DNA of 29,259 bases. Origin: a bacterium. Lineage in GTDB: Bacteria > ARS69. The notes beneath the pieces were generated by a model. That model was not told the origin of the DNA. It did no database searches and was given only the letters and a program-made list of their open reading frames with translations. Shown here in pieces: positions 8,264 through 29,259 of the stretch. Position 1 is the first letter of the stretch. The number at the start of each line of letters is the position of its first letter. The position numbers and the translations under genes were made by a program. The stretch lies in contig JALGZR010000075.1 in assembly GCA_025774805.1 (NCBI GenBank), forward strand, positions 1 to 29,259, written 5' to 3'.

Positions 8264-9784
8264 ATGCCGTCGATCCTCTCCCCGCTGACCGGCCTAGATC
8301 GACCGGGGAGACTCCGCCTCGTCCCCGCACTCGCGCTCCGCTCTCTCCTTCTCGTCGCCGCGGGGATGGTCCCGGGCGGCCCTCCTCCGGCCGCCGCCAC
8401 CTCCATCCGCGCGGACGGCCTCCTCGAGGTCGACGGTGAGCCGTTCTTCCCCGTCGGCCTCCTCGATCTGGGAACGTTCACGTACAGCGACTGGAACCAG
8501 AGGATTCGCAAGTCCGGGGCGAATCTGGTCTGGGATGTCGGCGTCGCCTACGCGGACACGTCTCCGACCTGTGAGGCGGTGATGGACTCCGCGGCGGCCA
8601 CGGGCTACCGACTGCTGATCGGCTCGTGGGACACCTGGGGCTGGGACGATCCCGACACGCCCGAGTACGAGGTCGACTTCCGGATGTACGAGCACGACGA
8701 GTTCGCGACCCTGCTCACCTGCTTGAGCGCGGATCCGGGAAACGTCATCGGCTACGTCAATCGCGACGAGCCGGTCTGGACTCTGTCCCAGAACTGGATC
8801 GGAGACATCGACTCGGCCCACATCATGGAGACCTACGACCAGATCCACGCCGCGGTCCCCCACACGATCGTGGCGATGAACTTCGCGCCGGTCCACGTCT
8901 CCCGGGATCTGGAAACCTGGAAGAGCGACATCGTCCCTTTCCTGGACGCCACCGACATCGTGATGTTCGCCAGTTACCCGTATCCGGCGGGGGAGGGGAC
9001 GTGCCTCGAATTGAACGTGACCGGTTATCCGGAGTGCCCGATGGATCGACTGACGGAGGGTGCGGACATCTTCCGCCAGGAGCTCAGTCACCCGGGGCAG
9101 CCCCTCTGGATGATCATCCAGGCGTTCAAGAGCATCCCTCTGAAGGAGTCGCGGTGGGAGGCCTACGCGTCCCTGGTGCACGGGGCCACGGGGCTGCTCT
9201 GGGCCGGGTGGACATGGAGCCACGTTCTCGGGAACGGTCCCCGGTCGTGGCCGGTGACGCGGCAGGTCGTGGCCGAGGTCGCGTCTCTGGAGGAGTTTCT
9301 GGTGGGGAAGGAGATCCCGGGCTCCTTCTCGACGCATCCCCTCGTCGAGACCCGCGCCAAGTGGGGGCGGGGGACCCGCGCGGTCGTCTTCGCCGTCTCC
9401 CGGGAGGGATTCGCGGGAGAGGTGCAGGTGCGGCTCCCGCGGATCCCCCGGTGGCCGACGACCGTGACCGTCGTGGGAGAGAGCCGGGAGCTCGTGGCGA
9501 CCGACGGATTCGTGACGGACACGTTTCTCGATTACGAGGCCCACGTCTACGAGTACCGGGGTCTCCGGAGGTCCAAGAGCGCAGTGGCGATCTTCACCGT
9601 CCACGACGCCGCCGGGCGCCGGGTGGCCCTCCTCGGCTCGGGAACGTACGAGGCCGGGGTCGGCCATTTGGTCTGGAACGGGCAGGACGCGAAGGGACGA
9701 CGGGCGGGCCCCGGAGTCTATTTCGTCCGGGGAAGGACCTCGGACGGCGAGACGGCCACCGCCAGGCTGCTGATCCGCAGGTGA
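8264..9784 (+). CDS. secreted glycoside-hydrolase-like TIM-barrel protein with FlgD-type C-terminal module
   Basis: 506 aa. ATG 8264 has GAGGA 7 bp upstream; a signal peptide follows (hydrophobic VPALALRSLLLVAAGM, ending near PAAAT, residue 46). Residues about 50-370 look like a clan-A glycoside hydrolase barrel: DGEPFFPVGL at the first strand, GYVNRDEPVW with Glu169 as candidate acid/base, MFASYPYPAGEG, and WEAYASLVHGATGLLWAGW near the end. This resembles GH5/GH42-type folds, but I cannot name the family or sugar. A beta-sandwich-like segment (about 380-430) and a FlgD-like Ig module (441-506: FTVHDAAGRRV, WNGQDAKGR, GVYFVRG) follow, typical of exported proteins in this lineage. A strong terminator follows at 9840-9860, so it is monocistronic. 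Confidence 0.8.
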   Translation: MPSILSPLTGLDRPGRLRLVPALALRSLLLVAAGMVPGGPPPAAATSIRADGLLEVDGEPFFPVGLLDLGTFTYSDWNQRIRKSGANLVWDVGVAYADTSPTCEAVMDSAAATGYRLLIGSWDTWGWDDPDTPEYEVDFRMYEHDEFATLLTCLSADPGNVIGYVNRDEPVWTLSQNWIGDIDSAHIMETYDQIHAAVPHTIVAMNFAPVHVSRDLETWKSDIVPFLDATDIVMFASYPYPAGEGTCLELNVTGYPECPMDRLTEGADIFRQELSHPGQPLWMIIQAFKSIPLKESRWEAYASLVHGATGLLWAGWTWSHVLGNGPRSWPVTRQVVAEVASLEEFLVGKEIPGSFSTHPLVETRAKWGRGTRAVVFAVSREGFAGEVQVRLPRIPRWPTTVTVVGESRELVATDGFVTDTFLDYEAHVYEYRGLRRSKSAVAIFTVHDAAGRRVALLGSGTYEAGVGHLVWNGQDAKGRRAGPGVYFVRGRTSDGETATARLLIRR

Positions 9785-9818
9785 TCTATCTTATTGCCCA
9801 GTATGTAGATAGGTAGAT
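9784..9818 (+). other. AT-rich imperfect hairpin after the GH-like gene
   Basis: ATCTATCT (9784-9791) can pair with AGATAGGTAGAT (9807-9818), starting at the last base of the stop codon. It lies before the intrinsic terminator and may protect the 3' end or be part of an unidentified repeat. Confidence 0.3.
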
Positions 9819-9839
9819 TCCCGCCCACCCGATCTCCGT

Positions 9840-9860
9840 CCGGCCGGGAGGTCGGTTTTT
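9840..9860 (+). terminator. rho-independent terminator of the GH-like gene
   Basis: CCGGCC (9840-9845), loop GGGA, GGTCGG (9850-9855) with one G-T pair, then TTTTT (9856-9860). Placed 56 bp after the stop codon at 9784. Confidence 0.7.
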
Positions 9861-9988
9861 CGGGAACCTCGGGCCGGAGGCGGGGTACATGGCACTGAAG
9901 GCGCTCGGGACCGCAGACCCTCGGGCGCCCCCTCACCGAACGCGGGACAGCAGCCAGAAGCTTCGGATTGACGGGACGATCAGGACGA

Positions 9989-10028
9989 CGCCGCGACCCG
10001 ACGACCCCCGGGCGCGGCGTTTCCTTTT
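9989..10028 (+). terminator. second terminator-like hairpin
   Basis: CGCCGCG (9989-9995) pairs perfectly with CGCGGCG (10013-10019), followed by TTTCCTTTT (10020-10028). It may back up the first terminator, or act as an attenuator if transcription of the next gene begins upstream. Confidence 0.5.
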
Positions 10029-10105: not shown

Positions 10106-12022
10106 ATGAGCGCACCGACGGGACTTCGAGAGCGCCTCGAGGCGGGCGTGGTCGTCGGAGACGGCGCCATGGGGACGATGCTCTACGGCAAGGGCATCTA
10201 CATCAATCGCTGCTTCGACGAGCTCAACGTCGCCTCTCCGGATCTCGTCCGGGACGTCCACCGCGGCTACGTCGAGGCGGGGGCGGACTTCATCGAGACG
10301 AACACGTACGGGGCCAACGCCTTCAAGCTCGAGCCGCACGGCCTGGCGGAACGGTTGGAGGAGATCAACCGGAAAGGGGTCGAGATCGCACGGGAGGCCG
10401 CGGGCACCCGCGCGCTGGTGGCGGGATCCATCGGACCTCTCGGGATCCAGATCGAGCCGATCGGCCGGCTGGCCTACTCGGAGGCCCGGGACGCCTTCCG
10501 GAAGCAGGCCCGGGCCCTCGAGGAGGAAGGGGTCGATCTGTTCGTCATCGAGACGATCCGGCGGCTCGAGGAGATGCGGGAGGCGATCCGGGCGGTCCGC
10601 GAGGTCTCGGACAAGCCGATCGTGGCCTGCGTGACCATCACCGAAGAGGACATCTCGGCCTACGGCGATCCTCCGGAGAAGATCGCCGCCGCCCTCGACT
10701 CGTTCGGGCCCGACGTGATGGGCCTCAATTGCTCGGTCGGCCCGCAGCCGATGCTGAAGGCGATCGGGGAGATGATGCCCCACACCCGCCTCCCGACGTG
10801 CGTTATGCCGAATGCCGGGATACCGCGCCTCGTCGAGGGCCGGTACATGTACCTCTCCTCGCCGGAGTACTTCGGCGAGTACACCCGGCGGTTCCTGATG
10901 GCGGGAGTGAGAATCGTCGGCGGGTGTTGCGGAACCACACCCGCTCACATCCGGGCGATCAAGGACGCGGTGCGGTCGGTGCGCCCCGAGAGGCCGCACG
11001 CCGAGCGGGCCGTCGCCACTCCGGTGAGCCCGATCCGGGGCGAGACGATCGCCCCCGTGGCGAAGGCGCTCAAGTCGGACCTCGCGGCGAGCATCGATGC
11101 GGGACGATTCGTCTGCTCGGTCGAGATCTTGCCGCCCAAGAGCCCCGATCCCGAGCGGGCTCTGAAGCGCATCCGGCGCCTTCGAGAGGCGGGCGTCGAC
11201 GCGGTGAACATCCCCGACGGACCTCGGGCCAGCGCACGCATGAGCTCGCTGGCGCTGGCCGTTCTCGCGAAACGGAGCGCCGGCGTGGAGGCGATCCTCC
11301 ACTACTGCTGCCGGGATCGGAACCTCCTCGGGATGCAGTCCGACCTGCTGGGAGCGGGAGCGCTCGGAATCGGGAACATCCTGATCATCACCGGGGATCC
11401 TCCGAAGCTCGGCGACTATCCCGACGCCACCGCGGTCTTCGACGTGGACTCCATCGGGCTCATGCAGATCGCGAACCGCCTGAATCACGGACAGGACCTG
11501 ATGGGGAATCCCATCGGTTCTCCGACCGCGCTGCACCTCGGGGTGGGCGCGAACCCCGGGGCGGTGAATCTCGACGAGGAGATCCGCCGGTTCGAGTACA
11601 AGGTCGAGGCGGGGGCGGAGTTCGTGATGACGCAGCCGGTCTACGACGCGTCCGTCTTCGAGAACTTCGTGAAACGGATCGACCACTGCCGGATCCCGAT
11701 CCTCGTCGGCATCCTCCCGCTGCACAGCTTCCGTAACGCCGAGTTCCTCACGAACGAGGTGCCGGGGATGGAGGTTCCGCCGACCATCATGAGGCGGCTG
11801 GCGGACGCCGGATCGGCCGAGGCGGCGAAACAGGTGGGAATCGAGGTCGCGCAGGAGGCGCTCGCCGCGAGCCTTCCCCTCTGCCAGGGGGTGTACATCA
11901 TGCCCCCGTTCGGAAACGTGTCCGCGGCGATCCGCGTCCTCGAGGCGATTCCCGAGGATCTGCGCGCGCCGGGCGGCACGGCCCCCAGCGGGCGATCCGT
12001 TTCCTCGGAGGCATCGCCTTGA
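10106..12022 (+). CDS. bifunctional homocysteine S-methyltransferase / methylenetetrahydrofolate reductase (YitJ type)
   Basis: 638 aa in two catalytic parts. Residues 1-300 form the zinc-dependent homocysteine S-methyltransferase barrel: GDGAMGTMLY near the N-terminus, Cys209 in GLNCSVGP, and Cys274-Cys275 in GGCCGTTP are the zinc ligands. Residues about 330-620 form the FAD-dependent methylenetetrahydrofolate reductase: SVEILPPKSP, HYCCRDRN, IITGDPP and MTQPVYD. The domain order and size match B. subtilis YitJ (about 612 aa), and MetH-type B12-binding domains are absent. Together they reduce methylene-THF and methylate homocysteine in the methionine/one-carbon cycle; whether the first domain uses methyl-THF or S-methylmethionine cannot be read from sequence. 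GAGGAGGGG precedes ATG 10106. The stop overlaps the start of the DUF368 gene. Confidence 0.95.
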   Translation: MSAPTGLRERLEAGVVVGDGAMGTMLYGKGIYINRCFDELNVASPDLVRDVHRGYVEAGADFIETNTYGANAFKLEPHGLAERLEEINRKGVEIAREAAGTRALVAGSIGPLGIQIEPIGRLAYSEARDAFRKQARALEEEGVDLFVIETIRRLEEMREAIRAVREVSDKPIVACVTITEEDISAYGDPPEKIAAALDSFGPDVMGLNCSVGPQPMLKAIGEMMPHTRLPTCVMPNAGIPRLVEGRYMYLSSPEYFGEYTRRFLMAGVRIVGGCCGTTPAHIRAIKDAVRSVRPERPHAERAVATPVSPIRGETIAPVAKALKSDLAASIDAGRFVCSVEILPPKSPDPERALKRIRRLREAGVDAVNIPDGPRASARMSSLALAVLAKRSAGVEAILHYCCRDRNLLGMQSDLLGAGALGIGNILIITGDPPKLGDYPDATAVFDVDSIGLMQIANRLNHGQDLMGNPIGSPTALHLGVGANPGAVNLDEEIRRFEYKVEAGAEFVMTQPVYDASVFENFVKRIDHCRIPILVGILPLHSFRNAEFLTNEVPGMEVPPTIMRRLADAGSAEAAKQVGIEVAQEALAASLPLCQGVYIMPPFGNVSAAIRVLEAIPEDLRAPGGTAPSGRSVSSEASP

Positions 12023-13074
12023 TCCGCACGTCCTCGGACGCCGTCCGAGGTGAAGCCACCGAGCCGGGGGACGCGCCCGCCCGCGGCGACACCCCGGTCC
12101 CGCTTCTGGCGGGACGGGGAGTGATCGGCGGGGTCCTCATGGGACTCGCGAACCTCGTTCCGGGGATCAGCGGGGGCACGATGCTCCTCGCGGCCGGGGT
12201 CTACCCCCGGTTCATCCGCGCGATCGCCGAAGTGACGACGCTGCGATTCCGCATGCCCTCCCTGGTCGTGCTGGGGAGCGTCGTGATCGCTGCCGGGCTC
12301 GGGATCCTCTTGCTCGCCGGCGTGATCAAGGATCTCGTCGTGCACCATCGGTGGGTCATGTACAGCCTCTTCATCGGCTTGACCCTGGGCGGGATTCCCG
12401 TGGTGTGGAGGATGGCGAGACCGGCGACGGCTTCTCTGTGGGCGGGCGCGGTCGCGGGCGTGATCGCGATGATGTTTCTCGCTCTCGCCCAGCAGGCGGG
12501 CACGGGGGCGAGCGGAAGCGCCGACAGCAACTTCCTCATGCTGTTCATCGCCGGTCTCGCCGGCGCGAGCGCGATGATCCTGCCCGGCGTGAGCGGGGGA
12601 TACCTGCTTCTCGTGCTCGGCCAGTACGTACCGATCCTGTCCGGGATCGACACCCTCAAGCAGGCGCTCGGGGCGAGGGACCTCGCGGCCGCGACGGATC
12701 CGGTGCTGTCCGTGGTCCTGCCGGTCGGAATCGGAGTGGTCGCCGGGGTCGTCGGGGTCAGCAACCTGCTGAAGTGGCTTCTCAACCGGCACGAGAAGGC
12801 CACGCTGGGCGTTCTCCTCGGGCTTCTGCTCGGAGCGGTCATCGGCCTTTGGCCCTTTCAGGCCGCCGTCGACCCGACGCCGGGGGAGACGATCATCAAG
12901 GGACGGGTCGTGACGGCGGAGAACCTCGAGGAGTTCGACGTCGATGATTGGCCGGTGACGCGATTTTCACCCACCGGGGGGCAGATCGCCGGGGCCCTTG
13001 CCCTCGTGCTCGCCGGAGCGGCCACGACCGCCGGAATCGCCCGGCTCGGACGAGAGCCGTCGGACGAGGCCTGA
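12019..13074 (+). CDS. DUF368 family membrane protein, putative polyprenyl-phosphate translocase (PopT type)
   Basis: A 351-aa polytopic membrane protein. The DUF368 family includes PopT, recently assigned as a flippase that returns undecaprenyl phosphate to the cytoplasmic face for wall synthesis. Two inverted-topology signature loops are clear: GLANLVPGISGGTMLL (about residues 40-56) and SAMILPGVSGGYLLLVLGQY (about 189-208). Eight or so hydrophobic helices are present; residues about 290-315 form a hydrophilic loop before the last helix. The start is TTG 12019, overlapping the previous stop (TTGA), with GGAGG 7 bp upstream. The first 32 residues are hydrophilic and precede the domain. Coupling to a methionine-cycle gene is not functionally obvious. 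Confidence 0.9.
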   Translation: MIRTSSDAVRGEATEPGDAPARGDTPVPLLAGRGVIGGVLMGLANLVPGISGGTMLLAAGVYPRFIRAIAEVTTLRFRMPSLVVLGSVVIAAGLGILLLAGVIKDLVVHHRWVMYSLFIGLTLGGIPVVWRMARPATASLWAGAVAGVIAMMFLALAQQAGTGASGSADSNFLMLFIAGLAGASAMILPGVSGGYLLLVLGQYVPILSGIDTLKQALGARDLAAATDPVLSVVLPVGIGVVAGVVGVSNLLKWLLNRHEKATLGVLLGLLLGAVIGLWPFQAAVDPTPGETIIKGRVVTAENLEEFDVDDWPVTRFSPTGGQIAGALALVLAGAATTAGIARLGREPSDEA

Positions 13075-18417: not shown

Positions 18418-18481
18418 CCGGCATTTCTCATCGGGCTTGTCGCCGCCGCCGCCGCAGAGCCTCGTGAGATATGCGGGCCAG
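18414..18481 (+). mobile_element. 68-bp copy of the CTAG-ended inverted-repeat family, overlapping a stop codon
   Basis: The left end CTAGCCGGCATTTCTCATCG (18414-18433) mirrors the right end CGTGAGATATGCGGGCCAG (18463-18481). Both match the ends of the 181-bp copy at 4820-5000, including the GCCGCAG segment before the right end, with about 110 bp of interior missing. The CTAG contributes the TAG stop of the SLC13 permease. The folded transcript could act as a terminator-like structure. Confidence 0.6.
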
Positions 18482-18538
18482 GGGCCCTTTCCGGGGGCGG
18501 CAACCCTGCCGGCATCTCCGAGATCGGCACCCCCCGTC

Positions 18539-18567
18539 TTGAATCCGGTCCTCCCGCGCGCGAGAAT
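18539..18567 (+). promoter_or_regulatory. promoter of the FG-GAP protein gene
   Basis: TTGAAT (18539-18544), 17 bp, GAGAAT (18562-18567), about 60 bp before ATG 18629. Confidence 0.45.
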
Positions 18568-18628
18568 CCCGGTGGAAGACGGGTATTTCGCCGAGACCGC
18601 AGCGAACCGGATCGGAAGGGGGAAGCCC

Positions 18629-20782
18629 ATGATTTCGCCACCCGCTCGACGGATTCGACGCCTCCGGAACCTCGGCATGCTGCTCCCGGCTTTGGTCGTG
18701 CACTCGAATCCGGTCCACGCCGGCGAAGAGGCCGGGCCCGACCTCGAACTGACCCCGGAGACCGTACGCGACGTGTTCGATCTGGCGGCCCTCGGGGCCG
18801 ACCTCCCCGAATCGCCCGTGGAACCCTCCGGCGGCGGCATCTGGTCCATCGTCGATCATCCCGCCCTCGAGAACCTCGGAAGCATCGTCGGGGCGACGTT
18901 CACCGACGTGCTCCGCAACGGATCTCCTGACGTCTTCTGGGCCGAAGCGGGCTTGGGGGATCCGGACGCGCCGAATCATCTCGCGGTGAACTACGGGGGA
19001 GAAAATTTCGTGCACGTGACGGGAACCCCTCTCGATGAGGCGGGAACGGGTCGCGGGTGTGCATGGGGTGACTACGACGACGACGGCGATCTGGACGTCT
19101 ATGTGGCCAGAACCGATACGAACTCTCTCTACCGGAACGACGGCCCTCTCACGTTCACCGACGTGACGACGCCCCTGCTGGCGGGACCGGGGGCCTCCTC
19201 CTCCGGCCCCTCGTGGGTGGACTTCGACGGGGACGGGGACATCGACCTGTTCAATCCGACGGGGACGCATTATCCGAACCGCCTCCTGCGCAACGACGGC
19301 ACCGCCGGATTCGTCGACGTCACCGCGGGAGGGCTGACCGATTCCCTCTGGGCGATGAGCAGTTCTTGGGTCGACTACGACAACGACGGCGACCCGGACG
19401 TCTACATCTGCGGCCCGGATCCGAACCGTCTCTATCGAAACGACGGGAACGGCGTCTTCGTCGATGTGACCACCCCCCCGCTGGACGACCCGGGGGGAGG
19501 GCACGGCGCGGCGTGGTCGGACCTCGACAACGACGGCCACTGGGATCTCTACATCACGAACTTTTGGGAGGAGAATCGGCTCTTTCACAACCGCGGCGAG
19601 GGCTGGTTCGCCGACGTGACCTACGGTTGGCTCGGGGACCCGCGATTCAGCTCCGGGATCGCCTGGGGCGATTACGACAACGACGGCTTCGAGGACCTCT
19701 TCTGGGGCAACTCCCTGGCTCCCAACGTCCTGATGCGGAATCTCTCCGGCGGGGGGGAGATCGTGTTCGAAGAGACCACCGAGCTGGTACTCATGGACAA
19801 CTCCATCGCCGGGGGAGCGGCCTGGGGGGATCACGACGAGGACGGAGACGTGGATCTCCTCTACGCGTCGCTCCAGACGCAGACCTACAGTCGTCTTTTC
19901 CGCAACGGGTCACAGCCCGGTCCGGCGTGGCTGCACGTCGATCTGATGGGAATCCAGTCGAATCGTTTCGGGATCAGCTCCCGCGTGCGAGCGGTCGAGG
20001 GAGACCTCTCTCAGATGCGGGAGGTGGACGGAGGATCGAGCTTCGCTACTCAGAACTCGTTGGCGGTCGAGTTCGGTTTCGGGAACAGGGTTACGGACGG
20101 CGCCGTCGACTCCGTCGTCGTTCGCTGGCCGAGGGGGAACGTACAGATCTGGATCGACGTTCCGATCAATCAGAGAGTCCTGATCATCGAGGATTCGGAT
20201 CCGACGCCGATCCGTCTGTCCGGGTTCGTCGCGACGGACGTGCCCTCCGGGATCCAGCTGGAGTGGACGACATCATTGGAGACGGAGTTCGCCGGGTTCT
20301 TCGTGGAGAGGGGCGCCGCCGCCGGCGGTCCCTACCGCCGTCTCCACGACGACATCCTCCGGGGACGAAGCCCCTACCGCTACCTGGACGAGGACGTATC
20401 GGCCGGGGAGCGCTGGTCGTACCGGCTGGCCGCCGTCGACCTCGACGGTACCGTCGGGTACTACGGCCCGGTCGAGGCGCGCGTGCCACCTCGCACCGGC
20501 CGAGTGCTCGCGGTCGATCCGGCCCGTCCGAATCCCTTCGCGACGTCCACGGAGATCCCCTTCTCGCTGCTCGCTCCCTCGAACGTGACCATCACGATCC
20601 ACGACGTCGGAGGGCGGAGGGTCCGGGTCCTCCCGAGCGGAAGACGGGACGCGGGATCGCATCGCGTCCCCTGGGACGGGCGTGACGAGGAAGGACGTCC
20701 CGTGCCGGCCGGGTCCTACTGGGTGCATGTGGAGGGAGACGGAATCTCGGCCGCCCGGCGGCTCGTTCGGCTGCAGAGGTGA
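18629..20782 (+). CDS. secreted FG-GAP/VCBS repeat protein with ASPIC/UnbV, FnIII-like and FlgD-like modules
   Basis: A 717-aa exported protein. ATG 18629 has GGAAGGGGG upstream and starts a signal peptide (MISPPARRIRRLRNLGMLLPALVVHSNPVHAG in outline, basic then hydrophobic). Six calcium-binding DxDxDG-type loops start at residues 148, 198, 249, 298, 348 and 401, an even spacing of about 50, each followed by a (L/F)(Y/L/F)RN(D) motif: a beta-propeller. Residues about 440-515 are ASPIC/UnbV (SSRVRAVEGD, VRWPRGNVQIW). Then come an FnIII-like domain (about 525-620) and a FlgD-like Ig module (about 625-717: PARPNPF, HDVGGRRV, WDGRDEEGR). Likely surface or extracellular binding; no enzyme active site is seen. 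It converges with the next gene. Confidence 0.9.
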   Translation: MISPPARRIRRLRNLGMLLPALVVHSNPVHAGEEAGPDLELTPETVRDVFDLAALGADLPESPVEPSGGGIWSIVDHPALENLGSIVGATFTDVLRNGSPDVFWAEAGLGDPDAPNHLAVNYGGENFVHVTGTPLDEAGTGRGCAWGDYDDDGDLDVYVARTDTNSLYRNDGPLTFTDVTTPLLAGPGASSSGPSWVDFDGDGDIDLFNPTGTHYPNRLLRNDGTAGFVDVTAGGLTDSLWAMSSSWVDYDNDGDPDVYICGPDPNRLYRNDGNGVFVDVTTPPLDDPGGGHGAAWSDLDNDGHWDLYITNFWEENRLFHNRGEGWFADVTYGWLGDPRFSSGIAWGDYDNDGFEDLFWGNSLAPNVLMRNLSGGGEIVFEETTELVLMDNSIAGGAAWGDHDEDGDVDLLYASLQTQTYSRLFRNGSQPGPAWLHVDLMGIQSNRFGISSRVRAVEGDLSQMREVDGGSSFATQNSLAVEFGFGNRVTDGAVDSVVVRWPRGNVQIWIDVPINQRVLIIEDSDPTPIRLSGFVATDVPSGIQLEWTTSLETEFAGFFVERGAAAGGPYRRLHDDILRGRSPYRYLDEDVSAGERWSYRLAAVDLDGTVGYYGPVEARVPPRTGRVLAVDPARPNPFATSTEIPFSLLAPSNVTITIHDVGGRRVRVLPSGRRDAGSHRVPWDGRDEEGRPVPAGSYWVHVEGDGISAARRLVRLQR

Positions 20783-23567: not shown

Positions 23568-26159
23568 TTACGCCGTCTCGGGCTCCTTCACCCCGGAGCC
23601 CTGGATTCCCCGAGGATCCTCTGCCGGCTCGGGCAACAGGAGCTCGGTGAGAACCGCCCCGATGGGGGAGAGCACCGTGAAGATGAACATGTGCCAGACG
23701 CACGTGACGGCGAAGCCGTCGGCGCTGAGGGCGCCCTCGGGGGCGAGCAGTGCGGTGAGGACGGTGGAGAGCACGCCGCCCCCGACGCCGCCCAGGACCG
23801 AGGAGACGATCCGCTTCCAGAGGGTGGCTCCCCCGCCGCCGATCGTGACGACCGCGCCGAGGAGGAGGGGTAGCAGCGCCAGGGCCCACGCGAGGTCGCT
23901 CAGCTCCGGCAGTCGTCCGTGGCCGCCCCGGTGGAACCACTCCACCGTGCCCAGGATGATGGCGGCCCCGGCCGCTACGATAGGAACGTGCCAATAGCGT
24001 GGTCGCCGCAGACGGCGGGCCTCCGCCCGAAGCCGCATGCGCCGGCGAATCGTGAGCGGCCAGTTGTAGAACGCCGAGAACGCCATGTGCTCCAGCAGGG
24101 CCCCCGCCTCGCCGAAGACGGGAACCACGTGCACCGCCTCGGTGGCCCAGTGGGCGGCCATGAATCGGGCCAGCGTCGGATAACGGTAAGTCATCTGGAT
24201 GGGAAAGGCCAGGTAGCCCACATACTTGAAGAAGCCCAGGAAGACCGCGATGTTGTAGTCGCGGAAGTTGCGCTCCCGGATGACGAGCCAGACGACGTAG
24301 AGCCCGCGGACGAGCGATCCGGGAGAGATCGGGATCACCTGGAACAGCGCGATGATGCCCAGGCCGATGCCCCACGCCTGCGCCCTCGGCATCTCGGGGT
24401 GAGACAGCACGTAGAAGACCGCCACCAGCACCGATACGACCTGCGTCACCGGGACCGTGCACACGTGCACGGCGAGGCTCTTGAGGTACTTTTGGATGAA
24501 GGGCTCCTCGATGGCGGAGAGAATCGTCTCGGAGTCCTCCTCGTCGATGATGCGTTTCTCCCGCCCTTCCTGAACCATGTCCCGCAGCCAGTTCGCGCGG
24601 AGCTCGGCGTCGAAGTAGAGACGAACGGGCCGGACGAAGATGTAGTGGAGCCGCTCCCGCAGGTAGGCGCCGTCGGTCAGGAAGCGGTGCAGGCCGACCG
24701 GCAGCAGCGAAAGGGGTATGTGGAGAACCATCCGCCCGGAGGACGAGGCCACCTTCGGGGCGGCGGCGGCCGTCAACCGGCCGTCCCGATGCCAGTCGAT
24801 CACGTACTCGGCGGCCTTGCCCCGCAGGGCGCGCCGCAGGTATCCGAAGCTGGAGACGATCCGCCCGTAGTGGACCCGCCACTCTCCGTGCGCCCAGAGT
24901 CGGCGGATGAGCTTCCCGAGAATCGGCACCAGACCGAGCAGGGAGAACAAGATCGTCGAAAGGGCTCGACCCCGCAGCTTCTTCTCGTGTCGTTCGTCGA
25001 TCATCCGGCGAACGGACCAGCCGGTCACGGCGCTGTCGAGAAGGGTCGACCACAGGGTTCGACTTCCCAAGAGACGTACGTGGTTGTGGGTGACGTCCGG
25101 TACGGAGTCGCGATATCGACGCTCCGCCGACTTCAGCTCCTCGAGCGATTCCCGCAGATCGGCGAAGTCGTCGGCATGGGCGTCGACGAACGCCTCGAGC
25201 TTGCGGAGATCACCCCGATCGAACTGCACGAGACTTCCGCGCGCGATTCCGGCGAGGATCAGCTTGAAGTCGCCCGGGCTCATGGGGAGAAAGGGGAGAA
25301 GCGCGAGGCCCGCCCGGAAGTCCACCGCCACGAGGCCGCCGGAGGGGTCCTCCTCGGTGTCGGCGCGCTTCAGGCAGTTGGGCTGGCTCTTCCACGTCGT
25401 CCACTCGTACTGCCGGGCGAACTCGTGTCCTCCCATATCGTGCAGCAGCTTCACGAAGTCGTGCATGAACTGTTTCTTCGTTCGGAACTCGGGCGATCCG
25501 AGCTGCCGGGAATCGACAGGCCGTCCGCGTCGCCAGCGGCGCAGGAGGTCCATCCGGTCGTCGACCTCCAGTCGCCAGGTTCTGCCGTCGATCCAATCAC
25601 TGAGCTCGCCGCAGCTCCCGAGGTTCTCGTCCACGAGTGTCGCGTGCACGTCGTTGACGGCGTCCTCCGAACCCATTCGGACGCGCGCCCCCCTTCGGAT
25701 CAGCTTTTGCCATAGCGCGCCGGCCCGGGCGGCCGCCGGATTGCACTGGAGCTGGAACGGGCCCTGGAATCCGATCGCGTAGACGAGATTGCGAAAAAAG
25801 AGGGAGAAAGAGGAGGGAGGGATGAGGACCTTGAGAGCGTAAAGCCCGTCCTCACGGACTCCCGGGATCGGACCGCCTTCGATTTGCCGCACCCGAACCC
25901 GATAGACCTGCCCGGCGAAGCCCCCTCCCACGAAGCGCTCAATGTGAAGGTGGACGCGGCCTTTCGCGGCGGCTTCCCGGCCGGCCTCCGCCTCGGCGGG
26001 CCTCGCCGCCCCCGCCTCCCGGGCGGCGACCGGGTCGACGTCGTACACGACGGTGTCTCCCGGCTCGTATCGCTTGCGACGGAAGGGACGGGCCAGTCGA
26101 GCCTCGTGGAACCGCTGCTCGAGCGCTCGACAGACGTCGACGGAGTACTCTGCGGCCAT
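23568..26159 (-). CDS. kinase-like domain fused to a polytopic membrane region, function unknown
   Basis: 863 aa. The N-terminal 300 residues look like a divergent protein-kinase fold: a glycine loop VGGGFAGQVYRV (77-88), Lys110 in YALKVL, a hinge-like ELSDWIDGRTW, Asn261 in QPNCLKR and Asp280 in VAVDFRAGL (a DFG-like place). The usual catalytic Asp five residues before Asn261 is Trp256, so activity is doubtful, or the chemistry is UbiB/phosphotransferase-like. From about residue 400 there are roughly eight hydrophobic segments (such as VVSVLVAVFYVLS and GLGIIALFQVIPI), interrupted by a long soluble part. ATG 26159 follows GGAGAGG; GATAAT at 26226-26221 is a possible -10. I do not recognise a named family. 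Confidence 0.78.
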   Translation of the reverse strand: MAAEYSVDVCRALEQRFHEARLARPFRRKRYEPGDTVVYDVDPVAAREAGAARPAEAEAGREAAAKGRVHLHIERFVGGGFAGQVYRVRVRQIEGGPIPGVREDGLYALKVLIPPSSFSLFFRNLVYAIGFQGPFQLQCNPAAARAGALWQKLIRRGARVRMGSEDAVNDVHATLVDENLGSCGELSDWIDGRTWRLEVDDRMDLLRRWRRGRPVDSRQLGSPEFRTKKQFMHDFVKLLHDMGGHEFARQYEWTTWKSQPNCLKRADTEEDPSGGLVAVDFRAGLALLPFLPMSPGDFKLILAGIARGSLVQFDRGDLRKLEAFVDAHADDFADLRESLEELKSAERRYRDSVPDVTHNHVRLLGSRTLWSTLLDSAVTGWSVRRMIDERHEKKLRGRALSTILFSLLGLVPILGKLIRRLWAHGEWRVHYGRIVSSFGYLRRALRGKAAEYVIDWHRDGRLTAAAAPKVASSSGRMVLHIPLSLLPVGLHRFLTDGAYLRERLHYIFVRPVRLYFDAELRANWLRDMVQEGREKRIIDEEDSETILSAIEEPFIQKYLKSLAVHVCTVPVTQVVSVLVAVFYVLSHPEMPRAQAWGIGLGIIALFQVIPISPGSLVRGLYVVWLVIRERNFRDYNIAVFLGFFKYVGYLAFPIQMTYRYPTLARFMAAHWATEAVHVVPVFGEAGALLEHMAFSAFYNWPLTIRRRMRLRAEARRLRRPRYWHVPIVAAGAAIILGTVEWFHRGGHGRLPELSDLAWALALLPLLLGAVVTIGGGGATLWKRIVSSVLGGVGGGVLSTVLTALLAPEGALSADGFAVTCVWHMFIFTVLSPIGAVLTELLLPEPAEDPRGIQGSGVKEPETA

Positions 26160-26172
26160 CTTCCATCCCTCT

Positions 26173-26184
26173 CCGAGATCTCGG
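26173..26184. promoter_or_regulatory. 12-bp palindrome upstream of the kinase-like gene
   Basis: CCGAGATCTCGG is perfectly symmetric and lies 13 bp before the start codon, between the GATAAT-type -10 (26221-26226) and the coding region. It may be an operator or a leader hairpin. Confidence 0.3.
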
Positions 26185-26358: not shown

Positions 26359-26865
26359 TCAGCTATCCGCTTCTACGGGTCGGGCCCCTCGGGTGATCTC
26401 GAGCTCGATCTCGTCCCGGATCGGTACGCCGCCCCGGCCGGTGAGGGGAATCTCGGGCTTGAGCTTGCGCGAGTTCTCGATCGCGCCCTCGTGAATCGCG
26501 GCCACGGTGAACCCTCGGCCCCGGTAGAACTCGATCGCCGGGACGTTGTCGTTCGTGGTGACCGCCCACAGACGGCGGCACCCCCGCAGCGCCGCATCGG
26601 CGCGAACCTTGTTGAGGAGGGCGGTGCCCACGCCGATGCGCTCCCGCAGGGAGTTAAACGTGACGATCTCGCAGGAGCTCTCGTCCTTGCAGTAGGTCAA
26701 CAGCCCCACGCGCTCCCCCTCCAGCAGGGCGACATAGCCGGGGAGCTGATCGGCCAAGTGCACGCGTCCGCGGGAGACGATCCGGGTCGATCCCCAGTGC
26801 TTCTCCAAGAGGTCCCGGATCCACTGGCGGTCGGTGTCATCGACCGGACGGACGGTCACTTCCAT
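26359..26865 (-). CDS. GNAT family N-acetyltransferase
   Basis: 168 aa; transfers an acetyl group from acetyl-CoA to an unknown amine. The acetyl-CoA loop is in RERIGVGTALLNKV (74-87: Gly78 and Gly80), preceded by strand CEIVTFNSL and followed by RLWAVTTNDNVPAIEFYRGRGF, the conserved motif B with the late Tyr. YVALLEGERVGLLTY marks the central strands. The start is ATG 26865 with GAGGAG about 6 bp upstream; the frame stays open further upstream, but that stretch crosses the promoter. A C-terminal extension (GRGGVPIRDEIELEI) is typical of stand-alone GNATs. It is divergent from the phosphodiesterase gene. Confidence 0.92.
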   Translation of the reverse strand: MEVTVRPVDDTDRQWIRDLLEKHWGSTRIVSRGRVHLADQLPGYVALLEGERVGLLTYCKDESSCEIVTFNSLRERIGVGTALLNKVRADAALRGCRRLWAVTTNDNVPAIEFYRGRGFTVAAIHEGAIENSRKLKPEIPLTGRGGVPIRDEIELEITRGARPVEADS

Positions 26866-26976
26866 GGAGATCTCCTCGGTGCACGGAGGGGCGACGCGTG
26901 GAATCGGCGATCGACGGCCGAACAGGGGCGGGGGTACGGTCCGGTGAAGAGCGGGCTGCAGCCGATCTCCCTCGGC

Positions 26977-27006
26977 ATTGTCGCTCATTCCGACCCTCGT
27001 TGTCGA
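26977..27006 (-). promoter_or_regulatory. promoter of the GNAT gene
   Basis: On the minus strand TCGACA (27006-27001), 18 bp, GACAAT (26982-26977). The leader would be about 105 nt. Confidence 0.4.
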
Positions 27007-27087: not shown

Positions 27088-27116
27088 CGCCCGGTCCGCT
27101 TCGGGAGATGCGATTC

Positions 27117-28909
27117 ATGATCCGCGCGATCGTGCCGGCCCTCGTGGCGGCAGCGGGCTACGCTCTTCTCGAGCTCGCCTTCTTCGTGCCCCGAAACCAC
27201 CTCTTGCCCTGGTCCGGGCAGCACGTCCCCCTCGCTCTCCTGTTCTTCGTGGTGCACGGCGCGGTGGCGCTCTTCGCAGCCGCCGCGGGTTGGCTTCTCG
27301 CTCGGGTCGCGCTTCCCTCCCTCACCGGCACGCTTCCCGCCTTTGCGTCCGTCGGCATCCTGGTCGCATTACAGGCGGTTTCCTTCTACCGAGAGCGCGT
27401 CTACTCGCGCCCTCGGGATCTCGTCGGGACCGCCGTCTCTCTCGGCATCGTCTTGGGGATCGCCGGGTTGGCCCTTCTCGTCGCCCACCGGTTTCGCCGC
27501 CGGGATCGACTCGGGGGAACGATCGCGACGATCCTCGCCCTGCTCATCGTCGGGGCCGGCGTCGGCCGAGTCTTCACCGCGAAGCCGATCGGAATGGCCG
27601 AAGCCGTCCCGCTCCGTCCGGAGGCCGATCGACTGAACGCGGCCGAGACCGGACAACGCGTTCTCCTCTTCGGGTTCGACGGAGCGACGTGGGAGGTCCT
27701 GGACCCGATGCTGGCCCAAGGTCGCCTTCCGAACCTCGCGGCTCTCGCGGCTCGAGGCCGGACGTTCGACCTCGAGACGTTTCGACCGACGTTCTCACCG
27801 GTGGTCTGGACTTCCGTGTCGACCGGGAAAAACCGCTTCGATCACGGCATCCACGACGTCGTGCAGACGACCCTCCCCGGAGGAGTCGTCCTGCCCCGCT
27901 CGATGGAACGGGCCGTCTTCTACACGAAGACGGTCGGGGCACCGTTACGGGCCCTCGCGAAAAGGCGCGGTTTCCCCCTCGCCCCCTACCGGAGCGATCA
28001 AGTTCGGGTGATCTCAGTGTTCGAAGCGGCCTCCGAGGCGGGAATCCCCACGACACAGATCGGGTGGTACGTGAGCTGGCCGGCGCGGCCGCTTTCCGGA
28101 GTGACGATCTCGGATCGCTTTCACCTTCAGGTACATGAACGCGAGGGCATCGCGGGCGTGGTCTCTCCCCAGGCGCTCGCCTCCCCTCTTCGCGGGCATG
28201 TCGTGACCAAGGAGGACGTGACGCTCGATCGGGTGCGCGAGTTCGTGGACGCAGAAGATCTCTCCCCCGAAGCGTGGGAGCGATGGGCGGATCGGCACGA
28301 GGGTTTCGTGGAAGAGATGCGCTTCAACCTCGCCCGAGATCTGAGCACACGAAACGTCGCGGTCGATCTTCTCGCCCGGGATTCGGACTGGCGGCTCTTC
28401 GGGGTGTACTTCCGCGCCGTGGACCTCACGCATCACCTGACCTGGCCGCTCCGGGACGCGACCGGAGACCCGGCGCAGAACGAGGATCTCCGCCTGCGTC
28501 CGGTGATCGGTCGCTACCACGAGTTCATGGACCACGTCGTCGGGGACGTGCTCGCGAACGTCTCCGAGGATGCGGTGGTCGTGATGTTGTCGGACCACGG
28601 CTTCGAGGATCGCTTCGCCCACGCGCGGGCTCCCGACGGGTTCGCGATCCTCGCCGGAGGGGCGATCTCCACGTCTACGAGATCGCGCCGACGATCGCCG
28701 CCCTCCTCGGCCTGCCCGTCGCGCAAGACCTGGAGGCGGCGCCGCGGATCGATCTGTTGCGGGCGGCGTTTCTCGAGGCTCACCCGATTCGAACCGTTCC
28801 CACGTGGGAGCGGTCGGGTCGCCGGACCACTCCGGGAGACGCGGTCGACGACGAGGCGGTTCGTGCCACGGAGGTCGAGCGCCTCCGGGCGCTGGGCTAC
28901 ATCCGGTAG
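27117..28909 (+). CDS. membrane-anchored type I phosphodiesterase/nucleotide pyrophosphatase-like protein, frameshifted
   Basis: About 597 aa if repaired. ATG 27117 is preferred to ATG 27108 because GGGAG lies 9 bp upstream of it. The N-terminal 165 residues hold about five membrane helices. The alkaline-phosphatase-superfamily domain then follows: VLLFGFDGATWEVLD (metal Asp), TFSPVVWTSVSTGK (nucleophile Thr/Ser region), YFRAVDLTHHLTW (Asp, His), MLSDHGFED (Asp-His) and FAHARAPDG (late His). At the G run 28659-28662 the frame breaks; one extra G would join LAGG to GDLHVYEIAPTIAALLGLPVA and end with EVERLRALGYIR at TAG 28907-28909, the usual end of this family. All metal ligands precede the break. 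A sequencing error or a recent mutation explains it. Confidence 0.85.
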
Positions 28910-28940
28910 AAGAACGGCTTCGCCTCAGCGCCGCAGTGCC

Positions 28941-28958
28941 CCGGCGTTCGATCGCCGG
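28941..28958. terminator. hairpin between convergent genes
   Basis: CCGGCG (28941-28946), loop TTCGAT, CGCCGG (28953-28958): a perfect 6-bp stem between the phosphodiesterase and the PD40 gene. It lacks a T-run, so it is only a possible bidirectional terminator. Confidence 0.35.
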
Positions 28959-28986
28959 AGTGTTCCCTCACACCGTTTCGATTCCC

Positions 28987-29259
28987 TCACTCTTCCGGTT
29001 CCACCCAGTCCGCTACGAAGATGTTCGTCTCTCCGGGGACCGATCCGTTCCGGTTGGAGGCGAAGGCGAGCCGCTTCCCGTCGGGACTGAACATCGGGAA
29101 CGAGTCGAACGACGTACAGGTCGTGACCTGCTCCAGCCCGCTCCCGTCGAGATTCACGAGGTAGAGGTCGAAGTTGCGTCCCCTTGGATTGCCCAGGTTC
29201 GACGCGAAGATGATGCGCTTTCCGTCCGGCGTGAAGAAGGGCGCGAAGTTCGCGGCTCC
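28987..29259 (-). CDS. C-terminal part of a TolB-like PD40/WD40 beta-propeller protein
   Basis: The last 90 residues of a minus-strand gene that begins beyond the window. Two PD40 blades are visible: FTPDGKRIIFASNLGNPRG and FSPDGKRLAFASNRNG, each with the P-D-G-K-R-(I/L)-x-F-A-S-N core. YLVNLDGSGLEQVTTC between them and NIFVADWVEPEE at the end are typical of exported TolB-like propellers. The stop TGA is at 28989-28987. The N-terminal domain and export signal are not visible. Confidence 0.88.
   Translation of the reverse strand, partial: GAANFAPFFTPDGKRIIFASNLGNPRGRNFDLYLVNLDGSGLEQVTTCTSFDSFPMFSPDGKRLAFASNRNGSVPGETNIFVADWVEPEE

Follow-up and report, generated by a model that had tools for sequence, protein, structure and literature searches.

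Kinases of the ABC1 family need an active-site aspartate, and SelO, which keeps the αC glutamate and carries a C-terminal Cys/Sec motif, is an active AMPylase; no fusion of SelO with a membrane domain is known. It has been described that SelO adopts a kinase-like fold in which the lysine, the asparagine and the DFG aspartate are kept and the HRD aspartate is replaced (PMC3281104). Mycobacterial MviN (MurJ-type, ActPs3) combines a pseudokinase with a membrane protein on which peptidoglycan synthesis depends; this pseudokinase no longer has the motifs for ATP and metal and fails to bind ATP, and the bacterial pseudokinase families reviewed so far have mostly lost their ATP-binding motifs (PMC12599244). 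Regarding membrane domains, those of UPF0104 occur in two-domain proteins (PMC5898192), and the flippase domain of MprF binds or handles phosphatidylglycerol-derived lipids (PMC8131360).

The 863-aa gene, its family and its surroundings

The window, i.e., the whole stretch of 29,259 nucleotides that was analysed, carries a gene with an ATG start codon (direct reading) for an 863-aa protein, whose features are collected in Table 1. Since overlapping open frames are abundant in high-GC windows, conservation was taken as the decisive test of this reading frame. A scan of GTDB genomes recovered homologues in 68 further loci, with 45–66% identity, most of them matched across residues 1–845, and such whole-length conservation argues that the ORF is not a chance high-GC frame; on this evidence, it is real. 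The loci belong mainly to Planctomycetota (Phycisphaerae, Sedimentisphaerales), with further carriers among MAGs labelled Fibrobacterota, Latescibacterota, Cloacimonadota, Acidobacteriota, Aminicenantes and Pseudomonadota. No significant match was obtained when the window protein and 59 members were compared with Pfam, nor when the family was searched against NCBIfam, PHROGs and plasmid records, and phmmer and profile searches of PDB sequences returned no significant relative. A literature search found no paper describing the family. Judging from these comparisons, it is an unnamed, uncatalogued and strongly conserved bacterial family, present in several phyla.

Table 1. Positions of the features of the 863-aa gene in the window
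Feature	Position	Strand	Basis
Whole gene, 863 aa, kinase-like and membrane domains	23568..26159	(-)	ORF; 68 homologous loci near full length; AF2 pLDDT 82
Shine-Dalgarno-like GGAGAGGG, ~8 bases before ATG	26167..26174	(-)	direct reading
Residues 1-66, conserved N-terminal extension (EYSxExC...LHRPMRxxRYDxGTEL) and variable linker	25962..26159	(-)	alignment
Residues 67-330, kinase-like domain	25170..25961	(-)	AF2 model; fold search of PDB; hhalign with Ser/Thr kinases
Glycine loop GGGFAGQVY (78-86)	25902..25928	(-)	G78-80, G83, Q84, Y86 invariant in 85/85
β3 lysine K110, in A108LK110	25830..25832	(-)	85/85
Q151 in αC helix, Glu in kinases	25707..25709	(-)	Q 82/85, H 3/85
Catalytic loop W253-T-T-W256-K-S-Q-P-N261	25377..25403	(-)	K257SQPN261 invariant in 85
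W256, place of kinase catalytic Asp	25392..25394	(-)	C58/W13/L7/A3/M3/G1 of 85
D280-F-R, DFG-type metal-binding motif	25314..25322	(-)	D280 85/85; DFG in two PgpA fusions
D297, αF-like Asp, 17 residues past D280	25269..25271	(-)	85/85; AF2 helix 295-306
Residues 400-715, conserved membrane core	24015..24962	(-)	invariant columns; hydropathy; weak UPF0104/LPG_synthase_TM match
Membrane motif P610-I-S-P-G-S615	24315..24332	(-)	P610, S612-P-G-S615, R618, G619 (nearly) invariant
Residues 724-845, C-terminal hydrophobic segment, about four helices	23625..23990	(-)	hydropathy, alignment

In the phylogenetic tree, the window protein groups with the Fibrobacterota members and not with the pgpA-linked Planctomycetota, and the gene is absent from four genomes of the window's own taxonomic family; the tree position is compatible with either horizontal transfer or differential loss. 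Homologues of 1216–1221 aa with extra helices were found in Planctomycetota genomes of 9–10 Mb (L084:5135-8782(-) and L085:6485-10147(+)), where they carry a C-terminal region weakly similar to GDSL lipase/acylhydrolase (E 0.005); these genomes gave no pgpA match.

Within the window, the same strand carries a GNAT acetyltransferase gene (26359-26988(-)) some 200 bases upstream; beyond it, on the opposite strand, lies a type I phosphodiesterase/nucleotide pyrophosphatase gene (27108-29090(+)). Farther away, a VCA0040-like undecaprenyl phosphate translocase gene (12019-13074(+)) comes right after a homocysteine S-methyltransferase/MTHFR fusion (10106-12022), and an FG-GAP/ASPIC-UnbV protein (18437-20782(+)) ends in a C-terminal FlgD_ig domain, which is likely a secretion tail.

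A kinase-like domain without the catalytic aspartate

A preliminary description of the gene had proposed a kinase-like N-terminal fold, and structure prediction followed by fold search of this region bore it out. For the whole protein, AlphaFold2 supplied with the family alignment reached a pLDDT of 82, and for residues 1–340 one of 81; in the predicted model, residues ~27–310 form a kinase-like fold according to Foldseek and VIA. The predicted N-lobe has the order of elements of a kinase, with β1 at 67–78, β2 at 84–94, β3 at 106–112, αC at 141–162, β4 at 171–177 and β5 at 182–188, followed in the C-lobe by αE (223–242), the catalytic loop, D280 and αF (295–306). The best matches of this region were kinases, with a Foldseek probability of 1.0 and E of 2.6e-4; VIA-align superposed 163–168 residues on HIPK2 at 3.4 Å with Z of 10.6–10.7, many kinases being tied and the C-lobe partly covered. 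With the whole model as query, the matches listed were taken up by kinases, with none for the membrane domain among them. Independently of structure, hhalign against Ser/Thr kinases from related genomes gave P=0.001, while twelve unrelated families gave 0.025 or worse and the reversed profile 0.25.

Residue conservation was read from an alignment of 85 homologues, which included remote members with lengths between 763 and 1230 residues. The markers of the kinase fold, namely the glycine loop, the β3 lysine, the catalytic-loop asparagine and the DFG aspartate, are all present and invariant in the 85, so that the nucleotide and metal residues are kept family-wide; the positions previously assigned to the loop, the ALK lysine, Asn261 and Asp280 proved correct, and Q312-F-D314 is likewise invariant. 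Both markers of a canonical kinase, the HRD-type aspartate and the αC glutamate, are missing from the 85 homologues. Position 256 stands five residues before N261, hence in the place of the catalytic aspartate, and among the 85 homologues neither Asp nor Glu ever occurs there, which upholds the earlier remark that Trp256 replaces this residue. The preliminary description had not noticed that no conserved glutamate exists in the αC helix (141–162) in any of the 85 homologues, where Gln151 may serve as a stand-in. According to the alignment, the loss of both the catalytic aspartate and the αC glutamate is family-wide.

The stretch from D280 to D297 is hydrophobic (281–297, hydropathy) and covers 17 residues; the corresponding distance in PKA, from D184 to D220, is 36 residues. 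Given so short and hydrophobic an activation segment, the substrate would be a lipid rather than a protein, with residues 281–297 probably providing a lipid-facing and not a protein-binding surface, and ATP is presumably bound by the kinase-like domain. The loss of both catalytic residues calls for caution regarding activity, which, with the αC glutamate also absent, may have been lost. The N-terminal domain could be a pseudokinase regulator that binds nucleotide, or nothing, and gates the lipid transporter-like membrane core or PgpA, comparable to MviN; the family-wide absence of the two residues, the MviN precedent (PMC12599244) and the UPF0104-like membrane core described below are consistent with such a role. 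However, the bacterial pseudokinases reviewed mostly lose their ATP motifs, whereas here K110, N261 and D280 never change from one phylum to another, and a mere scaffold would have no use for the likewise invariant K257-S-Q-P. We consider a regulator of this kind a real possibility, though not the leading one.

The suggestion that the protein might be a UbiB-like enzyme fared differently. The UbiB/ABC1 profile (PF03109) had no hmmscan match in 59 members and reached P values of only 0.04–0.1 by hhalign. The KxGQ motif and the Ala-rich loop are absent, the loop being GGGFAGQVY, and because these motifs and the catalytic aspartate are lacking and the profile match is not significant, membership of UbiB/ABC1 was rejected. 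The D-x4-N Brenner motif of APH/choline kinases was also not found, there being no aspartate five residues before N261, and neither this group nor SelO gave a Pfam match in the family. A UbiB-like working mode is a separate matter: ATP hydrolysis would drive lipid extraction or mobilisation by the fused membrane domain, with no transfer. The short, lipid-facing C-lobe, the GQVY of the glycine loop, which recalls the UbiB loop, the membrane fusion and the lipid-gene neighbours would fit such an ATPase, but the same missing motifs, the lost active-site aspartate and the non-significant profile match speak against it and make it distinctly improbable.

The membrane domain and the pgpA neighbourhood

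The kinase-like domain is covalently joined to a large membrane domain, as claimed in the preliminary description, which had counted about eight helices; eight clearly hydrophobic stretches were recognised by hydropathy (about 404–414, 567–584, 599–619, 643–648, 730–736, 758–776, 791–805 and 818–837), and the AlphaFold2 model contains many helices beyond these in the membrane part. Across 290 genomes, no clear case of the membrane domain without the kinase-like domain was found. The core motifs P610-I-S-P-G-S-x-x-R-G, G648-Y-L-x-F-P-x-Q-M and P680-x-F-G-E-x-G-A-L-x-E are strongly conserved, while residues 724–845 are missing in some distant members and are replaced by PgpA in two fusions; the idea that these last helices are a decayed PgpA was rejected, as no profile similarity was detected (P 0.39).

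The membrane arrangement had been called unrecognised, which holds in part. HMMER hmmscan of family members gave no match to UPF0104/LPG_synthase_TM (PF03706), but hhalign detected a weak similarity of the core to this family (P 0.0007–0.001, probability 27%), the P values of twelve unrelated families being 0.03 or higher and those of reversed profiles 0.4–0.6, and the PISPGS motif aligns with the IPxxPG motif of UPF0104. As a lead and not a proof, the core may be akin to the UPF0104/MprF flippase domains.

PgpA is phosphatidylglycerophosphatase A, the enzyme that yields phosphatidylglycerol from its phosphate. Roughly half of the loci have its gene directly upstream of the family gene, on the same strand, and in some of them the two overlap or almost do. 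Another survey, of 198 Phycisphaerae genomes, found the family in 44 and pgpA in 160. In about 29 of the 44, pgpA adjoins or is fused to the family gene, in two orientations: upstream and co-directional in 15, and convergent at the downstream end in 12 (six whose coordinates are close, five at 0.6–0.9 kb with approximate gene length, and G831, recognised only when example loci were read directly). In two of the 44, G691 (L191:2451-5090(+), 880 aa) and G716 (L192:2781-5369(+), 863 aa), the fusion is in frame, in the order kinase-like domain, membrane core and then PgpA where the last helices stand, the PgpA parts having Pfam E-values of 1.8e-33 and 3.9e-28. PgpA is present in 43 of 44 genomes with the family versus 117 of 154 without it (Fisher p=0.0004, kinship ignored). 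The occurrence of two orientations together with gene fusion points to a working link rather than a frozen gene order.

Outside Phycisphaerae, no pgpA adjacency was found and the neighbours in other phyla are unrelated; pgpA is lacking in five of 12 family-carrying genomes checked, and the window gene has no PgpA domain, the two pgpA genes of its genome both being on other contigs. The family as a general partner of PgpA was thus rejected, since the link fails outside the class, where its absence indicates that PgpA is a possible and not an obligatory partner. It could also be argued from the same observations that the association is merely a gene order inherited in one class, the protein having an unrelated membrane role; this is very improbable, as two orientations and a fusion are hard to derive from a single ancestral order. 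The pgsA model had matches in 197 of the 198 Phycisphaerae genomes, above the cut-off in 120, and, being near-universal in the class, these matches make it unlikely that the family protein replaces PgsA. A pgsA-like gene also neighbours the fusion in G716, and G802 has the family gene grouped with both pgsA and pgpA.

Downstream, many loci carry two unknown genes followed by purA, uppS, cdsA, phoH and a 7TMR-HD gene. The pair between the family gene and purA is conserved in Phycisphaerae (L005:8710-9516(+), 9539-10021(+) and relatives, ~30 loci) and has no convincing Pfam match. In the same locus, pgpA (L005:5350-5988(+)) bears an appended stretch matching the first BacA/UppP residues, below the cut-off.

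Proposed function and comparison with known systems

The reading that we favour, with a probability of roughly 0.45, is that of an ATP-binding, lipid-directed atypical kinase-like membrane protein of phosphatidylglycerol metabolism; it is ranked ahead of the pseudokinase regulator, which in turn precedes the UbiB-like ATPase. Under this proposal, the kinase-like domain would lie on the cytoplasmic side and bind ATP together with a metal ion, and the protein would act on phosphatidylglycerol-type phospholipids, working with PgpA in Phycisphaerae. The mechanism would be either a modified transfer of a phosphoryl or nucleotidyl group that dispenses with the usual base, for which SelO offers a similar residue pattern, or a handling of lipids by the UPF0104-like core that is gated by the nucleotide. 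What speaks for the lipid-directed role is the link with PgpA, together with an activation segment that is short and hydrophobic. The strict conservation of the metal/phosphate ligands and of K257-S-Q-P suggests chemistry or at least nucleotide-driven motion. A catalytically active role is preferred over a dead scaffold. The pseudokinase sensor and the lipid kinase of the preliminary description are both still tenable. The more specific proposal of a new class of lipid-modifying enzymes, in which a kinase fold without the aspartate, paired with or fused to PgpA, would phosphorylate or nucleotidylate a phosphatidylglycerol-type lipid offered by a flippase-like membrane core, is unlikely as it stands.

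Every member of this conserved membrane family breaks the rule of kinase catalysis with the ATP site intact, across several phyla. The tie to phosphatidylglycerophosphatase, true fusions included, provides a concrete pathway in which kinase folds without the aspartate can be tested, and, if the protein acts on lipids, it would represent a new ATP-dependent step or control point in bacterial phospholipid synthesis.

Compared with UbiB/ADCK/ABC1, the family shares an atypical kinase fold, membrane association and a GQV in the nucleotide loop, but differs in the motifs, the catalytic aspartate and the profile match discussed above. Like SelO, it has no catalytic aspartate and retains the lysine, the asparagine and the DFG aspartate; unlike SelO, it lacks the αC glutamate and is fused to a membrane domain. 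PgpA, adjacent or fused in Phycisphaerae, is a separate fold and a known enzyme. With MviN, the family has in common a kinase-like domain lacking catalytic residues joined to a multi-helix membrane protein in one chain, as well as a membrane protein belonging to a lipid-linked pathway, although the domain order and the membrane family differ. Finally, the membrane core aligns weakly with UPF0104/LPG_synthase_TM proteins (MprF, AglD, YbhN) around the IPxxPG motif, whereas the glutamate found after this motif in many members of UPF0104 is not conserved here, and the partner domain is kinase-like instead of a synthase.
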